From Chlorella sorokiniana (lineage: Eukaryota > Chlorophyta > Trebouxiophyceae > Chlorellales > Chlorellaceae), in assembly GCA_025917655.1 (NCBI GenBank), contig CP084613.1, forward strand, positions 3,536,001-3,600,000: a stretch of 64,000 bases of DNA, in the 5' to 3' direction. This document shows positions 6,420 to 64,000 of this stretch, one piece after another. Position 1 is the stretch's first letter; each line of letters begins with the position of its first letter. The position numbers and the translations under genes were made by a program. Below the pieces are notes generated by a model. That model made no database searches. It had not been told where the DNA came from and worked only from the letters and a program-made list of their open reading frames with translations.

Positions 6420-8259
6420 TTAGCGGTAGCGGCGCAGCGAGATGGAGTTGTTCTTGCGCCAGACGGCGCGGCGGCTGGGGCGGGCCTTGGTGTGCAGGTG
6501 GCCCTTGCCCTGCAGGCCGCGGAACTTCTTGCCCGCGCTGGTGAGGCCACGCAGCTCGCGGTGCTTGTGCACGGGGTTGCAGATCCAGTTGATGCGAGCG
6601 TCCTGCGAGGGGGCGGTGCGGGGAAGGTGCAAGCAGCGGTGATGGGGAACTCATGCCAGTTGAGTGGCACAACAACGTTTGAAAGAGGCCTCCATAGCCC
6701 ATCTGTCCTTGTTGGTGGGTTGCCAGTCCCCTCAGCTCAGAATCTGTGGCTGCTCATACCAGCGCTGACGAAGGCTCCAAGCTGCACGCTTTGGACTGTT
6801 CGAAACGCTGGTCCCCAAAGGAATGGCTGGCAGCAGGGCAAGCTATCCAGCACTGCCTGTCAGTCCTTCAACCTCCCGCATCTGCCTGCTGGCTGTAACC
6901 CTGATGGCACCTGCCTGCCTGACCAGCAGGCCAGCGTGCTGCAAGACTGCGCCCGCCGCGCATCCAATGCCCAGCCCACACGGGGCAGCCCCGCCCGAGC
7001 TACCCAGGCTCACCTTGCGGATGGCCTTGTGAGCGGGGTCCACCAGGATGACCTCGAAGTACTTGTACACAGCGTCCTGCAGGCGGTACAAAGCGACGGT
7101 ACAATCAGTGCGGCCGCCTCGAGGTGAGTGGAGGTTCTCCACACATCCGCGCGTGGCGCAGGTTCCAAGCCTGGCCACCGCAAGCCCCTGCGGCCCCTGG
7201 TCAATTTGTTTCCTGATGCAGCGGATTGAATCGCTGCTCATGCTGCCCGTGCTGATGCTCTGAGGCTGGCCCGCAGCGCCGGCCAGCTGAGCTGACCGAG
7301 TGGCGGGGTTCTCCCACAGCCGCAAGGGCATGAGGGCCTTGGCAAAGTGGGTAGGGGGCGCACCTGGTTGACCCAGTAGCTGTTCAGCACGCGCAGGCCG
7401 CCGCACTTGCGGCCGACGCGCTCCTCGGCCACGTTGCGCAGGTTGCGGGTGGGCTTCAGCTGCGTCACACCCTGGTGCACCGGCTTGCCGTACACGATGC
7501 CCTGCAGATGCGCTCGGGCATGGGGCGAGGTCAGCAACGCACCGATCCTGCTGTGCAACGCAGCACAGCCGACGAGCAGCAGGCGAGGGCAGCGAGCTGC
7601 CCAGACATCAGGGCAACGATGACCATCGCAAGCTACACCAGCTGCCGCATCCGCGTCTGCTGCCGCAGAGGCTGCCCTCCTCCAGCAACACACCCCGCAC
7701 CTTGGACACCGGCTTCTTGCGGCCACCACGGCGCACGCGCACCCTATAGACCACATAGCCCTGCTTGGCCTTGAAGCCCATGCGGCGGGCCTTGTCAGGG
7801 CGGCTGGGCCGGGTCAGGCGCACGATGCCGGGCAGCTGACGGTACTCCCAGCAGCGCACGCGCAGCAGGAAACGGAGCACATCGCTCTGCTTCCGCTTCC
7901 ACAGCTCTTCCACATACTGCAGCAAGGAAGGCAAGCAAGAGAGGGCGCAGTGAGCCTCGCGCTTGGGCGGCGGCCCGCTGTCTGCCGCTCGAGGGTTGGC
8001 CACCTCCCCCAGCCGCTGCCGCTCCGCCATGAGTCCACCCTCCTGGCTCCCCAGACAGCACGTCAAGTCGCCTTGGGGGCCGCAGGCACGACAAGCTGGG
8101 GATGCCGGGCTGGAGGCGCAACACTAAGCGGTCGGCTGGACCGCATGCTGGCCGGAGAGGCGCCACCCTGGTGCCACACAATCTGCTGTCTCCACTGCAC
8201 CCTCCCTGCTGCACCATGCCCGCCCCGCTGCATGGCCTGTGCACCTTGTAGGCGCCCAT
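6420..8259 (-). CDS. RPL15: 60S ribosomal protein L15 (eL15)
   Basis: This gene encodes a structural protein of the large cytosolic ribosomal subunit. Five exons splice cleanly: 8259-8245, 7916-7701, 7501-7364, 7076-7014 and 6602-6420. They total 615 bases, or 204 residues plus stop, which is the normal eL15 length. Exon 1 encodes only MGAYK. Exon 2 opens [20 protein letters not shown] and includes [20 protein letters not shown]. Exon 3 has [20 protein letters not shown] and LNSYWVNQ, exon 4 [21 protein letters not shown], and exon 5 ends in the basic tail [10 protein letters not shown]. All introns are GT..CAG. The five-codon first exon is typical of ribosomal protein genes. The gene is divergent from the DNA glycosylase gene, with about 470 bases between their starts. 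Confidence 0.98.
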
Positions 8260-47430: not shown

Positions 47431-48279
47431 CGCCACAGGTGAGACTGTAGTTTGATCAGGAGTTGCGAGTGCTGCTTGAAGTCAAGATTGACGGGTAGTA
47501 GCATCCAAGGCAACAACCGGTGCCATTGAAGTGGTACCAAGAGAGGGGATGTACAGCATGTATTGCTGGGGGCAGGCAGGTCGTTCCCCTTTCTGCCAGC
47601 ACCCAACGCACTCAGAATTATACTGGCAACTGGTTGTAAACGCACAAAGGACACCTTGATTAGCAATAGGTTCACTCCCTGAATGCAACACTGTCAACAG
47701 GGTGTAGCGGATGAGGCGGTGAGGAAGGTGCTCTGATTGCAACCGCACGCTCTGCAGTTGCTTCTCACCTTCATGTTGCCTCTTTCCAGGCTTCCCTTCT
47801 CTTTGCTGGCACGCGGAGCAATACCCTTAGCAGTGCGGCCTTCCTTGAGCAGCAGCACAACCATCACAGCCATCGGTGCAACACACGCAGGGAGGCGGGG
47901 GACCTGGGCGCGGCTTACGCAAGTGGGCACCAATGCATGCCATTGCAGAGCCCCAACCAATGATAGGAGGGGAGGCTGGAACAGGAGGCAAACACACTTC
48001 TACGGATGGTGTCGGCAGGCCAGCGCCGGCCACCACCGGTCATCATCCGGCCAGGAGCTGCCAGCGCTTTGGCTCAGTAGGCGCTGGCCAGCCGACTGCT
48101 GAGAAAACTGCTGGGTGGCCGGCTCTGCAGATGGGCAGGGCCGCCTTCCTCGAGGGGCAGCTGGCCAGTGGGACGCCCTGCTGGCGGCATATGTATTGGG
48201 CACCAGGAGTGCTAGCAGGCTGGCCTCTTGGGTCCTCCCATCTGATGACTGTTCCATGCCACCACTCAGCGATGAGCGG
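47431..48279. other. Intergenic region left of the scrambled gene copy
   Basis: About 850 bases without a recognisable gene. The part next to 47431 is A/T-richer and should hold the SDR promoter. Similarity to the 56-61 kb gene begins only at about 48280. Confidence 0.4.
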
Positions 48280-48372
48280 CGCGGTGCCCATGTGCTCCCT
48301 CTGCAGCTGCACCAGCCGGCTTACCTGGCCCACCGACTGGCCAGACAGAAGCATTAGCAGCACTGCCCCCAC

Positions 48373-48987
48373 GCGCATCAAGTTGGCGCGCGCTGGTGTC
48401 ATGGATGATGCCATTTGCCTGCAGCTGCTCCGTCATGCCGCGCAGGAAGGCCCCGCTGGCCACCCCGTCCCCCGCCGCCACCCGGTCTGCCGGAAGCAAT
48501 GCTGCAGCAACGTTGTGCTTGCTGTTCATGCAGCACAGCAGCTGCCGGGTGCCTGCCTCCGTGACGTACAGATCGGGCTGCTGCCTGGCTGCGGCGTGCT
48601 GCTCCTGCCACACGTCAGTGCTCACCTCCACCTCAAAAGACGTGCACCTCGACAGAGTCGCGCTTCACGGCGCTGCGGGTGGAGCGGCGGTTGAAGTGCT
48701 ACTCTGTCGAGGTGCACGTTTTTGAGGTGGAGGCGCGCACTGACGTGTGGCAGGAAAAGAGCGTCGCAGCCGGGCAGCAGCTCGATCTGTACCTCACGGA
48801 GGCAGGTACCCGGCAGCTGCTGTGCTGCACAAACAGCAACTCAACGTTGCTGCAGCACTGCTTCCGGCAGACCGGGTGGCGGCGGGGCACTCAGTGGCCA
48901 GCGGGGCCTTCCTGCACAGCATGATTGAGCGGCTGCAAGCAAACAGCATCGTACACCAAATCAGCGCGCGCACCAACTTGATGCGCC
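48373..48987. repeat. Foldback inverted repeat 1 (arms about 295 bp, loop about 23 bp)
   Basis: The left arm (48373-48667) and right arm (48691-48987) are reverse complements at roughly 85-90 percent by eye. Both encode the same exon piece, VWQE...GTRQLLCC...AADRVAAG (motif abbreviated), on opposite strands. A transcript across it would form a long imperfect hairpin. Confidence 0.85.
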
Positions 48988-49632
48988 GCGCAAGGGGCTG
49001 GGGCACGCGTGGGGAGGCTGCTGTTCCCAGAGGGGCCCATGCAGCAGATTGGGGATGGGCGGGGCATGCGGCGTCACACAATGCTCTGCCCGCTTGCTTT
49101 CCCCCAAGCACAGCACCAGCTCACCTGCGCGGCGAAGCACTTGATGCCAACAGGCACCCATCTCCAGCAATTGCATTTCCGCGCCGGGCATGCGCGCCGG
49201 CCACAGAGCCGGTGCGGGCCAGAAGGCGTGTGCCGGGGGAGAGGTGTGAGGGAGCGTGCGCAGGCGGGACAGCACGGGTGCAAACCGCTGCAGGGCCAGT
49301 GGGTCTGCGCTGATGCGCATATACAGCCTGCGAAAGGGGGTGGCCATGGATCAGGCAGCTGAAGTGAGGCATGCGCTTCCGAGGGGTGTTGAATGCGCAG
49401 CGCCGGGTGGCTGGCGGGCGCAGGAGGTGAGGGTGGAGGTGATGCGCAGCTACGAGGTGCAGCCACGAGGTGCACCCGCCAGGTGCACCCTGCCAGCGCA
49501 CGCCCTCACTAGTGCATGAAGCGGGCCACAACGAGGCGGCCGTGCAAGGCCACGTAGAACATCACAAGGTCGCCTGCTCGACGCGACTCGATGCTGGTCG
49601 TGGGGTCGTAGCCTGCCGCCTCCAGGATGGGG

Positions 49633-49840
49633 CTGGCCAGCCGCACAACCAGCTCCGCCATGGCCAGGTTGCGTGAGCATGTCAGGCAGAGGGAGGCCTG
49701 ATGCTGCGTGCAGCCGGCCTGAAAGAAGGCGCAGCATGCGACGCCTTCCTGCAGGCGGGCTGCACGCAGCACCATGCGTCACTCTACCTGATATGCACGC
49801 GAAACCGGGCCATGGCGGAGCTGGTAGTGAGGCTGGCCAG
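49633..49840. repeat. Foldback inverted repeat 2 (arms about 100 bp)
   Basis: Left arm 49633-49735 and right arm 49740-49840 are diverged reverse complements covering the AELVVRLASP exon segment, with almost no loop. Confidence 0.75.
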
Positions 49841-50178
49841 GCCGCCTGCAGGACGGCGCAGCATGGCAGACATCCACGGCTGGAGTTTCAGTGAATAACA
49901 GCAATTGCCTAGAGCCACAGCACAGCTGCCTGGCGAACACGGTGCTCCCACAATGCGACCCCCACAGGGCGGTTCAGCTGCGACCCCGAAACCCGACAAT
50001 GCGCCATCTCCCGTCACGATGAGGACCAGGCACACAGCCTGTGCAGCAAGGGAGGGCAGCCTTGCCCTGCATGCATGCAGCAGCCACCAGGTCGCAGACC
50101 TTGAAGGGGAAGGGGGAAAGGCAGCGGCACCGCCAGATAAACCTGTGCAAGGAACTGCGCGCTGTGCCGGCATATCAC

Positions 50179-50306
50179 CAGAAGGGCTCGAGTGCTCCTG
50201 GGCAAACTGGTGGGACTTGCCGCCGCCGCCGGTGTCGAATGTCATTCGCCACCGGCGGCGGCTGCAAGTCCCACCAGTTTGCCAGGAGCACTCGGAGCTC
50301 TTCTGG
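50179..50306. repeat. Foldback inverted repeat 3 (arms about 57 bp)
   Basis: Left arm 50179-50234 and right arm 50250-50306 are reverse complements with a loop of about 15 bases, covering the GGGGKSxQFAQEH exon end. Confidence 0.75.
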
Positions 50307-51195
50307 CGATTTGCTGAAGCGTTTCATGCCTAACAACGGCTCGCAGGTGCAGCAGGCGGCCGAAGAGCGTGATCATGACGCCGCCCATCTCCTCTGCCGC
50401 CACGGCGAAGGTGCGCTCCCTGCCCCGCTGCAGGAGCTCCACGCTTAAACGGGCCTGCTGCTCCGGCGTTCCAATCACCACCACCCTGGCAAACATGTGG
50501 TCCTGCATGTGTGTGTTGGGGGCAGCAGGGAAAGCAGGCTGGAACCAGCATGGCACGAGGGGAGACCGGGGCAGCTGGGAGGGCTTTCCTCGACGCTTTG
50601 TCAGGGCTGCTGAGCAGCCGGCCCACCTTGGCCACCGTGGCGTTCTCCCTCTGCATCATCAAGAGCTGACCGAGGTTGACTGTCAGGGGCAGCAGCCACT
50701 CCACCACCAGCTGCAGCGCCGCAGTCTTGGTGCGCTCCCTAACCAAGCGAGCAGGCTCAACGCACTTCCCATTGACTTGCAGCTGATCATGCGCCTTTTC
50801 TTAGCAGGGGAGCGGGCATGACCAGCACGATGGCGCTCGTGAGGCGACTCCTGCTGGCTGTGGGGGTGGGGCAAGGCGCGGCATGCGCTCGGCAGCAGCA
50901 CAGACGGGGGCAGAGCCTCTCCTCCTGCAGCACAGGCAGCCTTCCCGCAGGCCGCGCTCATTGCGTCTTGATGCCACGCACCATCAGGCCGGGCACCTCG
51001 AAGTACCTGACGCTTCAGCCCGAGCCAGCGCCTCCCGGTGCAGCACCTCCAGTGCTCGATCGAGCCTGAGGGCGGCGGTGTCTCGTCGCTGGCCGTGACC
51101 CGCAGGCCGCACACCACGGCCTCCTGCCCCCTGCCCAGGCCCTCCGCCTCCTCAAGCGACCTGGGCTGCTGCAGGGAGTAGGCTGGCCCCGCCAT

Positions 51196-52038
51196 GGCTG
51201 CCCTCCAGCTGGTGCCCCCAGCTGGTGCTGAGAGCCAATGGCTTGAACCCCAGGATGGTGGGCAGAGCCTTGGATGTGCGTGGGCGGGTGAGCAGTCGCG
51301 AATTGGGAGAACAACGTCTTGAAAGGTCGTGAAAGGGCCTGGCGGTCCCCCGCTGCACCTCTGGCAAGCCAATAGATCAGCTACATGGCAGCCAATGGGC
51401 AGCTACATGGGAACACAAGTCAGGGCTCCAGCAGGCGCAGCAAACAGCTCTGGCCATTCCATCGGAGCAATGCATTTCAGAGTGCAGGATCCTGCCAGCG
51501 TTGGGAGACCATCTCCCACGGTCTGATCCGTGGTGCTGAAGTGCGCAACCGCCCGCCGCCATCCGCGGCCGCTGCCGCCGGCCCCGCCTCCCTCCCGTTG
51601 TTGCACCCTGCACTGCAGAGCCCCCTCTGCTGGAGCTCTTTCCCGCTTTGGCTGGCCGGTCTTTTCGCAGCATACCTGGCAGAGCTTGCCTGCCAAAATG
51701 GTGCTCGGGAGCTTGGGGTATTCCGCTGGCGGGGCAGGCGGCCGCAGCTTTCGATCGGCAAGGCCTGCAGCTGCCATTCGGCATTCCGTGCAGCATCGAG
51801 CTTTCATTGCGCATGCAGGACCAATGCGTGGCAGCTGAGCGAACAGCACCGCTGGCTGCTGCGGCAGCAGGGGAAGAGGCTGCTGCAGCGCTGGACGGTG
51901 GGCGGCGAACGGCGGCACAGGTACCCGTGAGACGCCCCGATTGCTTCGCGCTGGCTCCCCGTTATATTCGACACTTTGAAACACTAAGTGGTTGTATAGT
52001 GCGCCGCTCATCTTACGCTAACAGACCCGGTCTGCGCA
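51196..52038. other. Upstream flank of the scrambled copy; possible 5' exon
   Basis: From 51196 to about 51640 the sequence is still similar to 60.8-61.2 kb, so the duplication includes upstream DNA. A minus-strand frame starting at 52011 (MSGALYNHLVFQSVEYNGEP, later LPSTILAGKLCQ before a GTATGC donor) could be a first exon, but nothing else supports it. The stretch 51950-52025 is A/T-rich and may be a promoter. Confidence 0.3.
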
Positions 52039-52399: not shown

Positions 52400-52750
52400 A
52401 AGGGGTGGCGGCAAAACAGGTATCCTGGAGCTCCCAAGGTGAGGCGGCGGGGGTGGCGGCAAAACAGGTGTCTCTGGAGCTGCCGGGGGAGGCAGCAGGG
52501 CCAAAAAACAGGAATGGAGCTGCCAGGGTGGGGCAGCAGGGCACAACAGTGTCTCTGGAGCTGCGGGGGAGGCGGCAGGGCCAAAAAGAGCCGTGGAGCT
52601 GCCAGGGTGGGGCGGCAGGGCATAAAAGTGTCTCTGGAGCTGCCAGGGTGGGGCGGCAGGGCATAAAAGTGTCTCTGGAGCTGCCGGGGGAGGCGGCAGG
52701 GCATAAAAGTGTCTCTGGAGCTGCCGGGGGAAGGCGGCGGGGGCAAAGGA
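52400..52750. repeat. Minisatellite, 40-41 bp units, about 8-9 copies
   Basis: Units contain GTGTCTCTGGAGCTGCC and GGCGGCAGGGC; successive CATAAAAGTG marks at 52621, 52662 and 52702 give spacings of 41 and 40. Left-hand units are more degenerate. Open frames across it are a by-product of the repeat. Confidence 0.9.
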
Positions 52751-52868
52751 ACATGCGCGATGCTGGGGTTTCGATGGGCGGCCAACGACGGCAGGTGGGG
52801 CCGGGGGCTGGGGGCTGCTGCAGGCTGCATGCTGGAACCGCTGCAGGCCGGAACCGCTGCTCGACCGA

Positions 52869-54451
52869 ATGCCGGTGTGTGCCTCCGCCGCCGACATCCG
52901 CAGGATGGACAGGGCTACGCGGTGTCCCATTGGCATGCGCGCGCGCATGCTGCGAATCGGTGTGCGGCTGCGCGTTGTGGTGGCGCTCACTGGTGTGCAT
53001 GGCCCCGCACTCGCAGCTTTGCCAAGGCGCCCAGCGAGAAGAGCTTGCTGCCTTCGGTGCCTGGCGTGGCGGCGGAGGAGCCGTTGCCCGCCGCCGCCGA
53101 GGAAGCTGACCGCGCCGGCCACTTCATTGCGTTTCAGAAGGAGCGCGCGCTGCAGCGCCTGGTCCCCTTCCTCTATTCCCAGATGGTGCAAGCAGCCCAG
53201 ACCGCAGGGGTGTGGACGGGCGTGTGCATGCTGTCATTCAGCCGGCTGTTCAACAAGATGGCGCTGACCATGTGGGTGGCGCTGTCCGGCCGGGGTCTGC
53301 GTGCCTGGGGCCTGCGCCGCCCGCCGCTCTTGCATGCCTGGGCCGTGCGCTGCCCGCGCCTGCAGTGGGATGGGTTGGGCTGGGCATGGAGCTCGATGAT
53401 GGTCCCCCTCATGGTGACCCCTGCAGCAACAGCCACGTGGAGGCGCACACCGACTGCAACGACGCGGCGGGCGGCATGCTGACCATGATCACGTGGTACA
53501 CCTACGGTGCGCGTTGCTTGCCCACCGCCGTTGTGTGGCGCTTGCGTCACCGCTGCGCGGGCGCTTGCAGGCGACGTGGCGGCCCTGCAGGGCAACCAGT
53601 TTTCATGCCGGGCCTCGGGATGCGCTTGAGGAGCCCCACGGACGGCGCCTTGCTGCTGCTGGATGCCGCCACACAGGTGCGCGCATCCGGGGGCGTGCGG
53701 GCGAGCGCCGCTGCTCGACGGCGTGCCCAGCACCATGCATGTTGCCGCGCTGCTGTGCTGGGCTGGGCAGCCCGCCCCCTTGTTCGCTGCACCCGCCCTT
53801 ATCTGACGGTCTCTCCGCCACGGTCTGCACCCGGCAGACGATACAGCGGTGAGTTGGTCTCGCAACGGGCAACCCCTCACCCTGCCACAATGCAGGTACA
53901 CGGAACTTCCCCTGTCACCGGTGGCGGCGAACGATGCATCCGCGTCGGCTCTGCGAGCGTCCTCGACCAGCAGGTCGGTGCCGGGTCGAGGCTGGTCGGC
54001 GCGTGTCATGCTCGGTGCGCATAAGACAGTCCCGCATGCTGCGCAGGTGGCGGGTCGCGCGCGGCGGATGGTGGCTCACATGTTGGGGGTGGCGGAGGCC
54101 GCCTCGACGCCCGGGGCGGCCCCGCAGCCGGACCTGAGGGTGGCCAACAGCAGGCGCAAGACGTGGTCGGTGTACGCGGCGGACCCCGAGCACAACCTGG
54201 CAGGGTTTGAGGCCTACGCGGCGGGCCTGGGAGTCACCGATCCCGCGTTCCTACCGGATGCCGAGGCGGGCGCGATGCCCTTCTGCGGCCTCGTCGACGT
54301 CGTCGTCCCGCCAGGTGAAGCGGCCTGCCGGGTGAAGCGGCCTGCCGGGTGAAGCGGGGCGGGTGGTCGCCGCCGGGCGGTCCGGCTGCGGTCAAACTTG
54401 ATTCTCCTTGCTGGGCGCGCAGACACGGACAGCGACGAGGACAAGGACTAG
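52869..54451 (+). CDS. Unrecognised protein with an HTD motif and acidic tail
   Basis: A chain of plausible exons lies here. An N-terminal part begins MPVCASAADIRRMDR (52869, start uncertain). After a change of frame near 53030 come AGHFIAFQKERALQRLVPFL and YSQMVQAAQTAGVWTGVCML, then SFSRLFNKMALTMW. The next exons read NSHVEAHTDCNDAAGGMLTM followed by ITWYTYG (about 53432-53505), then VAALQGNQFSCRASG and TDGALLLLDAATQ. A last long exon has RARRMVAHMLGVAEAASTPG and FEAYAAGLGVTDPAFLPDAE. The final join CCA G|AC gives the acidic end DTDSDEDKD and stop at 54449-54451. HTD with a following dG.lLLLDA strand recalls 2-oxoglutarate/Fe(II) dioxygenases (including TET/JBP-like ones), but I cannot find the second iron-ligand His. 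The family assignment is therefore only a suggestion. Confidence 0.4.
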
Positions 54452-56092
54452 GGCGGCGGCCGCGGCAGACGCAGTCTTGTGCTGGCCGTTGCGGCAGACA
54501 AGGCAAGCGATCTTTTTGTTGTGCGGGTGTGTGTGTGTGTGTGTGTGTGGCCATTGGCAGAGCGCACCCCATTGCATTCCAGCCGCCCGGCCGCCCTTGC
54601 CTGGCCAGAGTCCATCCCCACATGCACTCAGAATCCGTTCAGGTGTAATGAAAGACGCACTGTTCAGCGGGGAATGAGGGCGGGGCAGCGGTCTGGTAGG
54701 CGGCGGCGGCGGATGGGCGGCAGACGGCTTTTGGGTGGAAAGCCAGCCTGGCCCTCGCCTCACTAAATTTCTGGTGATTTTCGGCTGTCGATCACGCCCG
54801 ATTTGGGGGTTCTGGCAGCACGAGTCCGCTGGGTGGTGGAGGAAATGCTCGCGCAGCACGTGGGTTCGTGATCAGCTCGCGATAGCTCTTTCCAATCCCC
54901 GCTCCCTGCGATCATCCAAAAGCGGCGGCTCCAGCGGCAAAGCGCGCAGGCCTGGGTGCCGACCGCGATGCCGCGCAGGTTGCTGGGCTTTGAGAAGGCG
55001 TGCGGGGGCTTCGGGACGTCGCTGCGCGCTGTTGAGCGTGAGCGAGCCTGAGGAGGCAGCTGGCAGCGCCACTGGGGTGTTGGCGGCGGGCGGCGGCAGG
55101 CTGCTTGCTGAGCGGTTTCGGCAGCACTGGCTGGAACCGAGGTGGAGCACGCCCTGCAGCATCCACTGCGGCGAGGGTGGAGGTCTGCTGCAGAGGGTGC
55201 GGCGAGCAAAGCAAACCGCCCCGGCAGCCCAGCAGACGCAACAACCGGCTGCTGCTCTGGCGGCAGACGGGTGCCTGGGCTGCCCGATGGGCGGCCATCG
55301 GGGTGACAGCCACTGGCTTGAGGCTTGGGCTGCCCGATGGGCGGCCAACGGGGTGGGCAGGAGGCCTGGGCTGCCCGATGGGCGGCCAACGGGGTGACAG
55401 CCTCGGCTGCGGGGATGGGCGGGGCAACGGGGTTGGAGAGCCATATGTGCATATGTGTTGCTGGCCAAAGCATGTCACAGCACGGACACTAGTAATAATA
55501 ATGTGAGGCAAAAGTAACGCCTGGGAGGCAATAAACGTCCCTGGGCCCTACAAAAGTCCTACATGTGAGCCTTCGGGCATCATCTTGACTTACATCCATG
55601 GCATGCACACTATGAGGGGGGATAGGTTTAAGTTGACAAGAGGACAGGCATCATAAGTAGCAGGGCAGCCCCTGGGGGAGCCGCCAGGCAGCTTCAGGCG
55701 AAGGTAGAGAATGAAAAGCAGGGCAATGCAGGAGGGAGTTCATGGGTTTGAGCTTTAGATAAAGTGAGGTGCACAGCATAGGACATTGAAGGAAGGGAAG
55801 GAGATCACAATTGCTATGCTGGAAGCGGGAAGGACTGCTCTGATGAGGTCCAGAGGCAGGGGGACAAAATAGCAAGGCGCATGTGTCGGGTATATCTCAG
55901 AGGATGCAGCAGAATGCAAATGGGTCACATGGGGAAGGGTTAGGATGGAAAGGGACGTTTGACAGGGTGCGTGGCCGCTAGCTTCAGCCTGGCCGCTGCA
56001 ACCCTTGGCGCCGCAGCATCGGCAGCCTGCCGCTCCATGGCTGCCGCCACAGTGGCTGCCTCACACCGCCGTCTCTGCGGCCAGGGTGGGCT
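54452..56092. other. Non-coding stretch with short tandem repeats
   Basis: About 1.6 kb without a convincing gene. It holds a (GT)n run at 54527-54549. It also holds three imperfect units of GGGCTGCCCGATGGGCGGCC with spacers, starting near 55277, 55327 and 55368. A clearly A/T-richer block (55490-55960) is probably the 3' UTR of the minus-strand gene that ends at 56093. Confidence 0.5.
55590..55594 (-). terminator. TGTAA poly(A) signal of the 56-61 kb gene
   Basis: Minus-strand TGTAA about 500 bases past the stop at 56093, at the far side of the A/T-rich block. Confidence 0.3.
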
Positions 56093-59000
56093 TCACACTG
56101 CCCTGTCCGCCTCAGCAGCCGCCGCCGCCTGCAGCTCGGCCTCCTGGTCCATGGGCGGCTCGTACAGGGTCCCGCCTGCCGCGAACAGCAGCTGGCGCTG
56201 CGCGCGCTCTGCTTCCGGCCCTTGCCCCGCCGCGCGCTCAGTGACCGCGGCCAGCAGCTCGCCCGGCTGCCCCCACATCAGCAGCGGCTTGCCAACAGGG
56301 ACGTAGACCAGCTCGGCGGCCCACTCGGCGGGCATGAACGCGCTGGGGAGCATCACCTCGTCCACCTGCGGCGACAGCGGCGTAGAACTCACATGTGCGG
56401 CACCGTGGGTGCGCCAACGCTGCAGCGGTAGGCGATGGCTGCCCCCCAAACAGGCCCACTCCGCATCTGCCTGCCGGTGCTCACCACGACGCGCCGGAAC
56501 CACTGCGTGGGTGCGTTGACTGCAGCCGTCGCCATGCAGCCGGAGGGCACCGTCACCCGCGCCACCGCGATGCCCGTGAAGGGCTCCACGATGTGCGCGC
56601 CGCCGGAGCGGGTGCAGCGGGCCTCGCCCTCCGCCAGCAGCGCCAGCGTGCGCTCCGTCAGGGAGTAGACGGGGATGGCACGGCCTGGCGCGGCCTGAAT
56701 TAGCCCGCCCGTCTCCAGCATGGCTGCCAAAGCCGCCTGGTCCACAGCGGCCCCAAACAGGCGATCCGCCAGCCCCAGCTCGGGTGCGCCAGCCTGTGCA
56801 GAGGTGGGAAGAGTCGGTCGAATGGTTTGAAGGTGCAGAGGTGCTCCTCCTCACTCGCCGCTACGCCCAGCACTGCCCGCCTCTGGGGCCCGCTGCCTCC
56901 CCAGGGCTGCCGGCCCAGCCCACGCACCTCGGCGAGCGCCTCGGGCGAGCATGCCAGGCCGCGCTCCGCCCGCAAACAGTGCAGGCCCTGAATGTTGACG
57001 GGAGGCGCGCCGTCTGGCAACTCAATGCGCTGCTTGCTGACGCCGATGCACGTTGCTGCCACGTGCAGCACTTCGTACCCGGTCGCCGGCGCCGGCGGGA
57101 TGCCGCTGCATGATGAGCTCAGCGGGGACTTTGAACTGCAGCGCGGGGCGGATGCGGCCCAGGCTCAGCCTCCCTCACCGCGGGTCCTCGCACACACACA
57201 CTCACGCACACACACACCAGGAACCTGCCCAAGCCCCGGAGCGCCCTCCATTCCTGGGCAAGGAAGCTCACCTTGTCCTTGCCTGCAGTCTCACGCTGGT
57301 GCAAGAGCAGCAGCTGGCAACCTTGCGTGAGCCTGGCAAGCTGGTTCTTGCTCCACCCTTGCGCCTGCAGGCGGGGACGCCGGTGGGGAGTGTGCCATCT
57401 CTGCAAGGCGGTGTGTGCGAGCAGGGATGCAGGCTGCCTCTGGGCGGGCAGGTAGAGGCAGCGGGCCGCGTCACCGCACCTGCAGGCATTCCGCAGCGAA
57501 CCCGTCCCACGACTCCAGGCCTTGCCAGTCAAATTCGCCGCCTTGCTCGGCGTCGGGGATGGCGGCGGACAGCTGGCCCATGTACTGCAAGGCCGCAGCA
57601 GCCTGTGAGCATTATCTGTGGACGAGTACCACCCATGTGCGGGAGCAGACAGGCACGGCAGGGCAAGGGACGGCCAGCCAATGCAGACAACGTCGAAGCC
57701 CCCCTCCCCACCCACCAGCGGGGCACGGCCGGGCAGGCCCCAAAGCAGGCCGCGCGCCGCCCCGTGGGGGCATGTGCGTGGTGAAGGCATCCAGCGCGGC
57801 CGCTGCGCTGCGTGCAGTCAGGCACGCCTCTTCCTGGTAGGCAGCCCTGGCGTCATCGAGCAGCGCGGTGCCCGAGTGCTGCTTCTGCAGCTGCACCAGG
57901 CTGTTTACCCGGCCCGCCAACGGGCCAGACAGCATCAGCTGCAACAATGCCCCGCGCGCACCAGGTTGGCGCGCGCGGTGAACTTGGGCACGATGTTGTT
58001 GGCCCGCAGCCGCTCCACCAAGCCTTCCAAGAAGGCCTTGCTGGCCGCGCCGTCCGCCGCCGCCACCCGGTCCGCCGAATCCAATGCAGCAGCAACGTTC
58101 TGGTTGCTGTTGCTGCAGCACAGCAGCTGCCGCGCGTCCGCCTCCGTCAGGTAGAGGTCGGGCTGCTGCCCGGCCGCTGCCCCCGTCTCCTGCCAAACGG
58201 CGGCCGGCACCTCCACCTCGAACAGGTTAACCTGCACAGAGCCGCCCTTGAACGGCCGTGCCACCTGCAGCGCCGCGGGAGGGGCTGGGGCATGGGTGGG
58301 GAGGCTGCTGTTCCAAGAGGGGCCCACGCAGCGGGCGGGTGATGGGCGAATCGCCATCTCTGCCCGCCTTCTTGCCCCCAAGCAAGGCGGCAGCCCACCT
58401 TCACGATGAATCGCTTGATGCCGCCGGGCAAAGAGATGGCGCCCGGTCCAGCAGCCGCAGCAGCGCGCCCTGCTTGCGCGCCGGCCACAACGCCAGCAAG
58501 GGCCAGAAGGCGGGTGCCTCGGGGGGTGGCGAACGTGCGCAGGCGGGACAGCTCGGGCTCCAGCCGCTGCAGGGCCAGTGGGCATGCGCTGATGCGCTTG
58601 TACAGCCTGCAAAAGAGGGGTTGCCAGGGCGCTGAATGCGCAGCGCCGGGTGGCTGGCGCGTGCAGGAGGCGAGGGCGGCGCGGCGCAGCCACGAGGTGC
58701 AGCCACGAGGTGCAGCCACCAGCGCACGCCCTCACTCGTCCAAGAACCGGCCCACGATGAGGCGGCCGTGCAGCGACACGTAATACATGGTGTAGTCGCC
58801 TTCGCGGCGGGACTCGCTGATGCCGGGCGGGTCGTAGCCAGCCGCTGCCAGGATGGGGCTGGCCAGCCGCACCACCAGCTCCGCCATGACCCGGTTTCTT
58901 GAACAGATCAGGTACAGCGACGCGTGGCGCTGCGTGCAGCCCGCCTGCAAGAAGGCATGGCACGGCAGACGTTCACGGCTGGAGTTTCAACGGGTAACAG

Positions 59001-60760
59001 CATGTGCCTGGCGCCACCGCGCGCTGTGCCCCGTGATGCGACCCCCGCAGGGCGGTTCACCTGCGGCTCGTGGCCTGACAATGCGCGTCGTCTCCCGCAA
59101 CGATGACCACCAGGCACACAGCCTCTGCAGCTGGGGAGGGCAGCCTTGCCCTGCGTACATGCAGCAGCCGGACAGGTTGCAGACCTCAAAAAGAGAAGGG
59201 GGAAGGGCAGCGGCACCGCCAGAGACAGCTGGACAAGCGACTGCTCGCCGTGCCGGCAACTCACAAGAAGAGCTCTGCGTGCTCCTGGGCAAACTGTAGC
59301 GACTTGCCGCCGCCGCCGCTGGGGAAGATCTTCTCCAACCCAGCCAGCAGCCGTCCAACCCCCCGCAGGCTGATGATGGCCTTGAACTGCAGGCCATCCG
59401 GTCGGTTGGCGGTGGATCGCCAGGGCGTCACCGCTACCTTGATGCTGCAGCATGGCCAGGCATGGGTCGCGTGAGCAGGGCTTCCGCAGCTGCATGCGGT
59501 GTGGCGGCCGCAGGCCGACGACGGGCGGCATGCTGCGAGGGACAGCGGCACGCTCCTCACCTGCACCTGTCCAGCATGCCCAGCAGGCGGGGCAGCTGCA
59601 TTCCAAACCGCAGGTCTCCAAGCTGCAGCCCGTGAATGATCGCCGTGGTACCACTGGCGCCGACCTCGATGTAGCCGTCAGTGAGGATCAGCCCCAGTGC
59701 AACGCCTGCCGACACCCAGTCTTCCAGCAGCGGCGTGAGCTGGGAATCTGGCACGCAGGGTCCCAGCACCTGCTGCCAGTCGGCACCCACCACGGTATGC
59801 AGGCGCAGCTCTTCTTGCACGCCAACGGCTTGCAGGCGCAGCAGGCGGCCAAAGCGTGCGGTCATGACGCCGCACATCTCCTCTGCCACCGCGGCAAAGG
59901 TGCGCCCCCTGCCCCGCTGCAGCAGCTCCATGCTCCACCGAGCCTGCTGCTCCGGCGTGCCTACTATCACCACGTTGCCAAACATGTGGTCCTGCATGAG
60001 GGAGTTTTGGAGGGCAGCGGGGACCGCAGGCTGGAACCAACAAGGACTGAGGGGAGACCAGGGCAGCTGGCAGGGCGAAGGAGGGCCCTCGCTCGACTCT
60101 TCTTCAGGGATGCTGAGCAGCGTTCCTACCTTGGCCACCGTGGCATCCGGCCCCCGCCTCATCAAGATCCGGCCGTGGTCGACCGCCAGCGGCAGCAGCC
60201 ACTGCACCGCCCGCTGCAGCGCCGCGGTCTTGGCGCGCTCCTCGACCAAGAGAGCAGGCTCGGTGCGCTGCCGCTTGGCTTGCAGCTGCTCCTGCACCGC
60301 CTCCAGCAGGGGAGCGGGCATGACCATCATGACGGCGCACTCATATGGTGACTCCTGCTGGCTGCGGGGGGTTGGGGCAAGGCGCGGCACTCGCTCGGCG
60401 GCGGCACAGACGGGGCAGAGCCTCTCCGCCCGCAGCGCCGGCTGTGCCCCCTCCCCCACCCCACCCCCGCGGGCAGCGCTCACTCTGTCTTGATGCCACG
60501 CACCACCAGGACGGGCACCTTGAAGAGCCTGACGCTTTGCGGGCCCCCGTCCGCGCCCGCGCCTCCGCGGTGCAGCGCCTCCAGCGCTCGATCGAGCATG
60601 GCGTCGGCGGTGGCCTCGTCGCTGGCCATGACCCGCATGCCGCACACCACGGCCTCCTGCCCCCTGCCCAGGCGCTTCCCTTCCAAGCACAACTCCCTCA
60701 GCAGGCCCTCCGCCTCCTCAAGCGACCTGGGCTGCTGCAGGGCGTAGGCTACCCCGCCAT
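56093..60760 (-). CDS. Large multi-exon protein, unrecognised; intact member of a local duplicated pair
   Basis: Long protein-like exons lie in order on the minus strand. An ATG at 60760 stands where the scrambled copy reads MAGPAYSLQQ; here the base run is one short, which breaks the frame right after it. Then come AYALQQPRSLEEAEGLLREL and GRGQEAVVCGMRVMASDEAT, VMMVMPAPLLEAVQEQLQAK, NVVIVGTPEQQARWSMELLQ with GADWQQVLGPCVPDSQLTPL (59990-59560), and LQFKAIISLRGVGRLLAGLE (about 59390). These lead to VMAELVVRLASPILAAAGYD with YYVSLHGRLIVGRFLDE (58900-58735), RISACPLALQRLEPELSRLR, GIKRFIVKVARPFKGG and LYLTEADARQLLCCSNSN. The 3' part has FDWQGLESWDGFAAECLQ and AIPVYSLTERTLALLAEGEA. It also has FMPAEWAAELVYVPVGKPLL and ends at 56093 with EADRAV. 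No known domain or motif is visible to me, and there are no membrane helices. It may be two genes rather than one. Confidence 0.55.
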
Positions 60761-61803
60761 GGCTGCTCCGTGCCTACGGCCGCTGAAATCCACGCTCAAT
60801 CCCCGAGAATAGTTGGCAGAGCCTTGGATGGGGCCGGGCGGGTGGGCAGTCGTGAGTTGGGAGGAAAGCGAATTCGAATGGGGTTGGAGGTCGTGAAAGG
60901 TGCGGGGCGGTCCCCTGCTGCCCCTCTAGCAAGCCAATAGATCAGCATGGCAGCCTCAATGGGCGGCAACATGGGAAGACAAGCCAGGGGTCCAGCAGGT
61001 GCAGCATGGCCAGCATCAGCCTTCCATTCCAATTGGAGCAATGCATGCCAGCGTGCAGGATCCTGCCAAGGTTGGGGAGACCGACTCCCAGGATCTGAAC
61101 CGTGGTGTTGAATTGTGCAGCCGCCCGCCGCCGTCTGCGGCCCCGCCTCCCTCCCGATGTTACACCCTGCACCGCGCGCGCCCCCTGCTGAGGAGGTGGG
61201 ATCGGATGCATGCCGCCCCACGTGCATGGCTCCTGCAGCCGGTAGCCTGTCTGGGTGGTGCGCAGCCGCGGCCTCTAGCTCCAGGAACACCAGCTGCCCA
61301 CACCCCGCCTGCGCCGGGCCTTGGCCGTTGACGTTCCTTGCTGCAGGGCGAGCGCTCCCCCTCCCACGCGGCTGGTCCCGCGAAGCAGCGGGAGGGCGAC
61401 GACGACGGGCCCATGGCACAGGAGACGCCGCCCGAGCTGTGGCCGCCACCCGCGGTGCATGGGCTGCGCCGGCTGCCTGGGCGGCGGTGCGCAGTACAGA
61501 GCACGCCCCCGACCGCGGACTGTGCTGACGCACAGTTTGAAGCGCAGTGTGTTACGACAAGGACAAGCTTGAAGACAGAGGAGGTTGCCCTGGATGGTGA
61601 ACAGGGTGCATTGGCGGCTGGGAACGCCGCCACGCAGGCCTCCCTCCTTGCGGGTGCGGCGGCGCGGCGGCCGCGGCGTCTTGTTACAAAAGGAGCGCAG
61701 TGAAAAGGTGCGATGTGCAAGGGGCAGACTGAAGCGCTGCTGACAGCGCAAGCATGGTGGGCACTAGGCGATGGCTGGCTGGCATCGCGGCGGCCCCGGC
61801 TAC
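60761..61803. other. Flank between two unrecognised genes
   Basis: About 1 kb. The first 400 bases match the flank of the scrambled copy (51.2-51.6 kb). A plus-strand frame after a TGCAG acceptor at about 61346, ending at 61703 (containing MAQETPPELWPPPAVHGLRR), is a weak gene candidate only. Confidence 0.3.
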
Positions 61804-64000
61804 TCAAGAGGCCTGCGTGGAGCCCAGCACCGACCCGCGCGCCGTCCCGCTCCCCGGCGCGCTTGCTGCCGCCAGGCGCCGCGTTCTCACCCCCGCGCGC
61901 TTCTTGCTCTCCGCCGCCTTGGCGTCCGCGCGCTGGGCGGCGTCAGACGGCTGCACGAGGCGTGCCGCGTTGGGATACTTGTGCTTGGTCAGCCGCTCCG
62001 TGTTCTTCAGCAGCCAGCTGTACTTCTCTGGCGGCAGCGCCTGCCACGCCGCCTGCATGCTCGTCCCCGCCTGCAAGGGGCGCAAGGCTGCAAGTGTGCA
62101 CACTGCGCCGGCTGAGCACAGCCACACAGGATGACAGGGCGCTGCCAGGCGAGAAGGGCGCGAGCGCGGAGGCGGCAGCCAACCTGTTCGGCGGTCTTCA
62201 TCACACCCTTCTCCAGCTTGGGCATCTTCACCGCGCGCAGGAGCGCATCCGCCTGGTGCTGGTCCGCAAGCACCTCCGCCAGCCCCTCCTGGGCGGCATG
62301 GTTGAGGTTGCGTTAGTGCGCATGCACACCCCCCGCAGGTCCCCTGTGATGTGCGGGCGGCGACGAACGCAGCAGCATCTCACCTTCAGAGCCTGCTCCG
62401 AAGCGCTGCCCGTCCGCTGCATGTGGCCCGGGTCCGTCAGCAGGGCACCCACCAGCTGGCGCGCAAGCAGCCTCGCCTCTACGCCCGCTTCAGGCGAGGC
62501 GCTGCCAGGAGCGCAACCTGGAGCAGGCGCTCCACGGCGTTGATGAACGGAGCGGCGGTGCGGGCGGCTGCGGGGTCATACGAGTTGGGCTTAGGGCCAG
62601 GGCTTGGTGCCAGTGACCCTTCCAAAACACGCACACACACATACACACACACACACTCACACGCCGCCACCCACCCCCACTCAAACCCCGCCCCCACCCA
62701 CAAACGCAAGCATGTGGCCGACGAGCCACTCGCCCGCCAGCCCACCCTCTGTGCACTCAACGCGCCTGCGTCGTCTGCCGCCCTGTCCAGAGCTGCCTTG
62801 TGCTCGGTGCGATCCTCCTTGCGCTGCTTGGCGACGGCGTGCCGCCCGTAGCCACCAGCCCGGAAGGCGGACCAGGAGGCCTGGTGTTCAGAGAGGCGGC
62901 GCCAAGGCGTGGACACCTCGCTCTGGGGGTTGGGGGCGAGGGAGGGAGGGGCCACATCGCAGGAGGTTGAACCGCAGTAGCTTGAGAGCGGTGGAGCATA
63001 GGGCCCCGCAGGCGGGCCACGCCGCCGCTGGCCGCCGCAACCGGGAGAGCCCACGCCCACCTGGTCTGGCACGATGCACAGGGCCGCCGGCTCAATGACG
63101 CGAAGCAGGCAGGCGCGCTGGCTGCCGGCAGACCCGCGCTGGCTGCCGGCGAAACCGTCTGGGCCGCTGGCGCCGCTGGCGGTCGCCGCTTGCCCGTCGA
63201 GCGACACATCGCCACTCTGCTGGGGGCCCGCGCCCCGCTGTCCTCCTCCGCGTCGCCGTCCTGCAGGTACTGGGTCACAAACTCCAGCAGCCTGGTCTCC
63301 ATGTCGGCCGCCTCTTCGGTACGCAACCATCGCGCAAGAGCCTCCTCGCCCAGGTCGGCCTGCAGAGCCGCAAGAGCAGCTTGCCAATGCCTGCAGCGGC
63401 GGAGGTGGGCGATGCGGCGAGGGGCTGGGGTGCACACGGTGGTGGGGTGCACACACACATGGACCGGCGGCGCGCCAGGGCGCCCGCACGAGCGCACCTG
63501 CGCGCCGTCAAGCAAGCGGCGTGATCCGCAGCCTTCTCCTGGTCTGCCTGCAACGATCCGGGAGGGGTCAGTGTTGGAAGGGGCCATGCAGCTCGCGACG
63601 CTGCTCGACGGGCGGGCAGGAGCAGGCCGGGAGGCAGCGCTGACCTCGTCACCGGCGGGGTGCACACCCTGCACCAGGCTGTGGTACATCAGGTAGGCAC
63701 GGGGGCGGTCGCACTGCTGCATATCGATGAGCGCCAGCTCCCATGGCAACAGCTGGTAGGGCTTGAGGTCGGCCCCCCCCGCAGGTCCCCTGTGTGGCGT
63801 TCAGGGCGCTGAGGCGCGCGGCTGCGCCCAAGCCGCAGGCGCGGTCGCCGGGAGCATAGGTCGCAAAGAGGGGGCGCCCGCGACAGGGAACTTCAGCACC
63901 ACCTGGTTGGGCTGCAGGGCTGCACGCAGGGTTGGGGTGGGAGTGGGGGCGGGCGGGCAGGCGGGGGTCGGGCGCGGCGGCCGCCGCCGTGCTGCCTGCT
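61804..64000 (-). CDS. Unrecognised protein, 5' end outside window
   Basis: Minus-strand exons run in from the right edge. They include LKPYQLLPWELALIDMQQCD and RPRAYLMYHSLVQGVHPAGD (about 63760-63650), LQADLGEEALARWLRTEEAA then DMETRLLEFVTQYLQDGDAE (about 63370-63250), VIEPAALCIVPDQ, and TPWRRLSEHQASWSAFRAGG then YGRHAVAKQRKEDRTEHKAA (about 62910-62790). They continue with ARQLVGALLTDPGHMQRTGS, LAEVLADQHQADALLRAVKM then PKLEKGVMKTAEQ (about 62290-62185), and AWQALPPEKYSWLLKNTERL followed by a Lys/Arg-rich tail, stop at 61804. Splice signals GT..TGCAG sit between the blocks. The C-terminal third is helical and basic, suggesting a nuclear or nucleic-acid-binding protein, but I know no matching family. 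Confidence 0.5.
62626..62664. repeat. (CA)n microsatellite in an intron
   Basis: About 40 bases of CA repeats with a few interruptions, inside an intron of the right-edge gene. Confidence 0.8.

Follow-up and report, generated by a model that had tools for sequence, protein, structure and literature searches.

A decayed gene copy, S3, in the stretch of DNA analysed here contains three segments that are each directly adjoined by their own inverted copy. This stretch, the window, covers 64,000 bases (C3:3536001-3600000) of a GC-rich genome of 38.8 Mb in 15 contigs. In our judgement S3 is probably a pseudogene that was struck three times by template switching in replication or repair, after which the foldbacks decayed without a function. 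The foldbacks thus look like old copying accidents and not like a working silencing device.

Copies of the gene and layout of the foldbacks

S3 aligned with an unrearranged copy in the same window, P3, in consecutive blastn blocks of 73-78% identity, and with contig C11 in blocks of 71-80% identity. It is devoid of the part corresponding to P3 left of 57858 and of ~480 nt beyond its third foldback. A second unrearranged copy, P11 (C11:776708-782094), is 83.8% identical to P3, and both sit inside a larger segmental duplication between C3 and C11. At the position equivalent to S3, contig C11 holds a shortened copy, S11 (C11:767099-768495), and a further fragmentary copy was found at C13:258629-260648. 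The features in the window, in window positions, are the following.

48273..51655, minus strand (same orientation as P3): S3, decayed and rearranged copy of the P3 gene, from blastn blocks and shared derived changes
48373..48679, no strand assigned: foldback 1, left arm, from the template-switch fit against P3
48680..48986, no strand assigned: foldback 1, inverted arm, with a fitted loop of 24 nt (P3) or 35 nt (P11)
49630..49736, no strand assigned: foldback 2, left arm, from sequence comparison
49737..49843, no strand assigned: foldback 2, inverted arm, without a loop against P3, from the template-switch fit
50170..50241, no strand assigned: foldback 3, left arm, its inner end at the site of the palindrome GAAGATCTTC in P3 and P11
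50243..50314, no strand assigned: foldback 3, inverted arm, after which S3 resumes ~480 nt further along P3
56261..61520, minus strand: P3, unrearranged gene copy, from 83.8% identity to C11:776708-782094 and an exon match at 57953-58264

The sequence-only reading had described this locus as a second gene copy with three foldbacks centred at 48679, 49737 and 50242. The copy and its three centres were reproduced, and its extent was refined to the limits given above. The arms of foldback 1 measure ~310 nt and are 87.5% identical over 303 aligned columns, those of foldback 2 measure 107 nt (83.2% over 107 columns) and those of foldback 3 72 nt (93.0% over 71 columns), with self-palindrome scores of 688, 224 and 184 bits, respectively. 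As had been proposed for the intact copy, P3 was free of foldbacks of at least 60 bits, and so was P11. The word intact itself stood in part: P3 showed no such rearrangement and one of its exons had an excess of third-codon-position differences, but the evidence from the selection scan was weak and eight of its frames matched no Pfam family.

The Pfam search of these eight frames, meant to put a name to the gene, went up to E = 0.1. When P3 and P11 were scanned against each other on both strands, no window combined pN/pS below 0.35 with at least 8 synonymous differences; laxer settings yielded weak windows scattered over both strands. Coding status is claimed here for a single exon only (57953-58264).

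Several observations concern the surroundings. The segmental duplication comprises 52734-63375 of the window and C11:769278-784000. Within it, the divergence between P3 and P11 amounted to ~8% over 59.1-61.5 kb and rose to ~20% over 57.0-59.1 kb, apart from a dip at 58.4-58.6 kb. This pattern looks like homogenisation of one half by gene conversion. An array of ~40-bp repeats occupies 52402-52747 and has counterparts near 771.7 and 775.4 kb of C11. A distant relative of the P3 exon, perhaps an older family member, was detected at C2:1152269-1152508 (34% identity over query residues 14-94, E = 1.7e-5); the 3,240 bases around this match held no inverted repeat above 26.5 bits. A tRNA-like gene with unclear anticodon was predicted by ARAGORN at 6532-6623 of the window.

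Template switching and the history of the pseudogene

For each foldback, an alignment in which the template may change strand once and then return was compared with an alignment without a switch. One event with four switch points was far superior to the plain alignment in all three cases and against both unrearranged copies. The scores with and without the switch were 599 vs -625 (P3) and 587 vs -653 (P11) for foldback 1, 314 vs -240 and 306 vs -255 for foldback 2, and 290 vs -1093 and 281 vs -1103 for foldback 3. Repeated template switching without function, which the sequence-only reading had set down as its plain alternative, is the best fit. The fitted return point lay near the point of departure for foldbacks 1 and 2 and ~480 nt beyond it for foldback 3. 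Microhomology at the fitted switch points amounted to only 0-4 nt, these points being blurred by later changes. The centre of foldback 3 coincides with a perfect 10-bp palindrome, GAAGATCTTC, which is present in both P3 and P11. Since perfect palindromes of this length occur ~2 times per kb of the window, and 9 times in P3 57851-60350, this coincidence is suggestive at most.

The sequence of events would be as follows. During DNA replication or repair, a copying strand would quit its template, run backwards for ~75-320 nt on the complementary strand and rejoin the original template. In foldbacks 1 and 2 the return would be near the exit, and in foldback 3 ~480 nt beyond it. A segment with an adjoining inverted copy would result, which would later decay without function.

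Changes in the arms were polarised against P3 and P11. Foldback 1 had 20 changes common to both arms, 15 confined to the left and 11 to the inverted arm, plus 12 mismatches that were not polarisable; in foldback 2 the corresponding numbers were 0, 5, 4 and 9, and foldback 3 had 5 common, 3 left-only and 2 inverted-only changes. Derived changes shared by the arms are expected if one arm templated the other. They were present in foldbacks 1 and 3 and absent from foldback 2, which may be old or touched by conversion. The contrast of 20 against 0 shared changes (p = 0.003) indicates that foldback 2 is older than foldback 1, unless gene conversion blurred it. All three foldbacks could also stem from a single episode of break repair in which the template was switched several times, as they lie inside 2 kb and have the layout of segment and inverted copy in common. 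The unequal ages of foldbacks 1 and 2 argue against such a burst, which we regard as unlikely, albeit gene conversion between the arms or from P3 or P11 could mimic the age difference. With recurrent template switching, the preferred explanation, the three hits on S3 would be spread over at least two separate times.

The arms of foldback 2 were as distant from each other as from P3 (83.2% to each other, 81.3% and 85.0% to P3). The proposal that the locus had been caught young did not survive this comparison, nor the divergence of 7-17% between the arms of the three foldbacks. This divergence also bears on the assembly. Inverted chimaeric reads do occur in long-read data, and an assembly or read artefact of this kind might imitate a foldback. 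Near-identical arms would then be expected; those of S3 are not, and the 20 and 5 arm-common changes in foldbacks 1 and 3 are absent from both P3 and P11. We find an artefact hardly credible.

The exon at 57953-58264 gave information on constraint. Differences between P3 and P11 were distributed over codon positions 1/2/3 as 18/16/33, whereas changes in the S lineage were distributed as 7/7/6 (shared by the arms), 7/5/3 (left arm) and 4/4/3 (inverted arm). The third-position share was 12/46 in the S lineage vs 33/67 between P3 and P11 (p = 0.019). The exon thus changed in S3 without the codon constraint seen between the unrearranged copies, and judging from these substitution patterns S3 looks like a pseudogene both before and after foldback 1 arose. 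The S3 frame across this exon is still open for 88 codons.

Silencing hairpins and the RNA interference machinery

A different reading takes S3 as a hairpin-RNA locus, whose transcript would fold into three long stems that Dicer would process to siRNAs against P3 and P11 or other members of the family. Either strand of the foldbacks was indeed predicted to fold strongly, with ~ -568 kcal/mol for foldback 1, and a second family copy, the one on C13, has foldbacks as well. Moreover, 130 of the 913 21-mers in the S3 arms matched P3 with at most two mismatches (129/913 for P11), compared with 0/913 in positions 1-48000 of the window. Exact matches, however, were restricted to 1/913 for P3 and 2/913 for P11.

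An RNA stem under selection should show more G:U than A:C mismatches on the transcribed strand. No such bias was found in the S3 arms, with 14 G:U vs 17 A:C on the plus strand and 17 vs 14 on the other (p = 0.72; 31 sites, hence modest power), nor when the three C13 foldbacks were added (24 vs 26). Arm-specific changes were similar in number in the two arms of the S3 foldbacks (23 vs 17), and both arms thus decay alike. None of these tests on the letters of the locus hinted that selection had kept a silencing hairpin.

The genome does contain parts of the machinery. Searches with Pfam profiles gave four PIWI matches above cut-off in Argonaute exons at C1:3585-3589 kb, where a PAZ fragment below cut-off was also present. 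A Dicer_dimer match above cut-off was located at C1:1090937, and the same strand carries, 4.5 kb downstream of it (C1:1086348), an RNase III match below cut-off that spans one TGA. Two further RNase III matches above cut-off lie on C3. The frames at the Argonaute and Dicer matches were judged by eye against the motifs of these proteins. The absence of Dicer and Argonaute had been put forward as a finding that would refute silencing; Argonaute exons and Dicer-like domains were found instead, so that silencing by hairpin RNA remains conceivable in this organism. Of the proposed small-RNA locus, the foldback anatomy and the presence of the RNAi parts were upheld, whereas the mismatch pattern, the like decay of both arms, their divergence and the scarcity of exact 21-mers count against it. 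We hold such a function of S3 to be improbable.

Recurrence in the gene family and comparison with known systems

The C13 copy contains three palindromes of 103-134 nt with arms of 74-84% identity, a value that varies with the alignment used. The first consists of weak but recognisable inverted gene sequence, 70% identical to P3 59314-59376, with a switch fit of 38 vs -82. The second fitted P3 poorly (12 vs -138), and its switch points fell on the edge of the sequence supplied. This fragmentary copy may have undergone the same type of event as S3.

A census of foldbacks, with low complexity masked and arms less than 60 nt apart, covered 25 pieces with 244,498 bases in all, or 0.63% of the genome, two of them overlapping by 403 bases. 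The sample was not random: 10 of the 25 pieces came from arbitrary places and the rest were the window, its flanks, family copies with their surroundings and RNAi genes. Six foldbacks of at least 60 bits were found, the three of S3 and the three of the C13 copy, vs a mean of 0.1 in 10 dinucleotide-preserving shuffles; at a threshold of 40 bits the numbers were 11 vs 2.9. Without masking, additional short palindromes appeared elsewhere, which were excluded from the count. Because S3 was chosen for its foldbacks, the independent evidence comes from C13. All three foldbacks outside S3 fell into one piece of 4,290 bases out of 241,115, for which the probability is 5.6e-6 if events are independent and uniform, an assumption that neighbouring events may violate. 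The retained part of S11 and the matching part of S3 had no foldback of at least 38 bits.

The similar scars in the C13 copy suggest that the P3 gene family may be unusually prone to switching. A hotspot based on general hairpin propensity was considered and found not significant, this propensity being not clearly raised in P3 57.85-60.35 kb (p = 0.06). That the foldbacks concentrate in one family may reflect a sequence-specific hotspot, or merely that these were the only young pseudogenes of a small sample. This concentration is also a point against the preferred reading, as neutral switching alone does not account for 6/6 foldbacks of at least 60 bits in two copies of one family. The hairpin propensity of P3, the short microhomology at the switch points, the poor fit of the second C13 palindrome and the modest power of the G:U test weigh against it as well. 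One might imagine that decayed copies keep gaining foldbacks since carriers of hairpins are favoured as silencers of active members, a hairpin-RNA system renewed time and again against its parent genes. We consider this quite improbable.

Template switching is already known as a source of hairpins. Among the matches listed in our literature search (titles and abstract beginnings), there was no description of a locus like S3. Monttinen and Loytynoja (2022, PMC8794818) describe template-switch mutations that create hairpins by placing a reverse-complement copy beside its source in a single event that involves four switch points; mismatches arise later. The S3 foldbacks are likewise adjoining inverted copies for which one event each fits. 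S3, by contrast, is a single pseudogene that would have undergone three such events; its arms reach ~310 nt, a second copy has similar foldbacks and no RNA gene is known to result. Plant miRNA genes, including pseudogene-related ones, have been described to originate by inverted duplication (PMC3237417), and S3 is similarly a pseudogene with inverted duplications of gene pieces whose parent gene persists; it differs from them in that no sign of pairing constraint was seen and that its 21-mers seldom match the parent copies exactly. In Drosophila simulans, hpRNA loci silence selfish genes (PMC10317233). As there, the inverted repeats of S3 are homologous to a gene family and recurrent, but its parent gene has no known selfish activity.

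Repeated hits on one family on two contigs, with arms of such length, would provide a natural hotspot for studying proneness to template switching. For Chlamydomonas, inverted repeats were named as raw material of small RNAs, and most young miRNAs were expected to be neutral (PMC5511227). Inverted repeats are common to that system and to S3. In a genome with Argonaute and Dicer-like genes, the S3 and C13 loci would also allow one to ask by what route raw hairpins turn into small-RNA genes, or why they do not.
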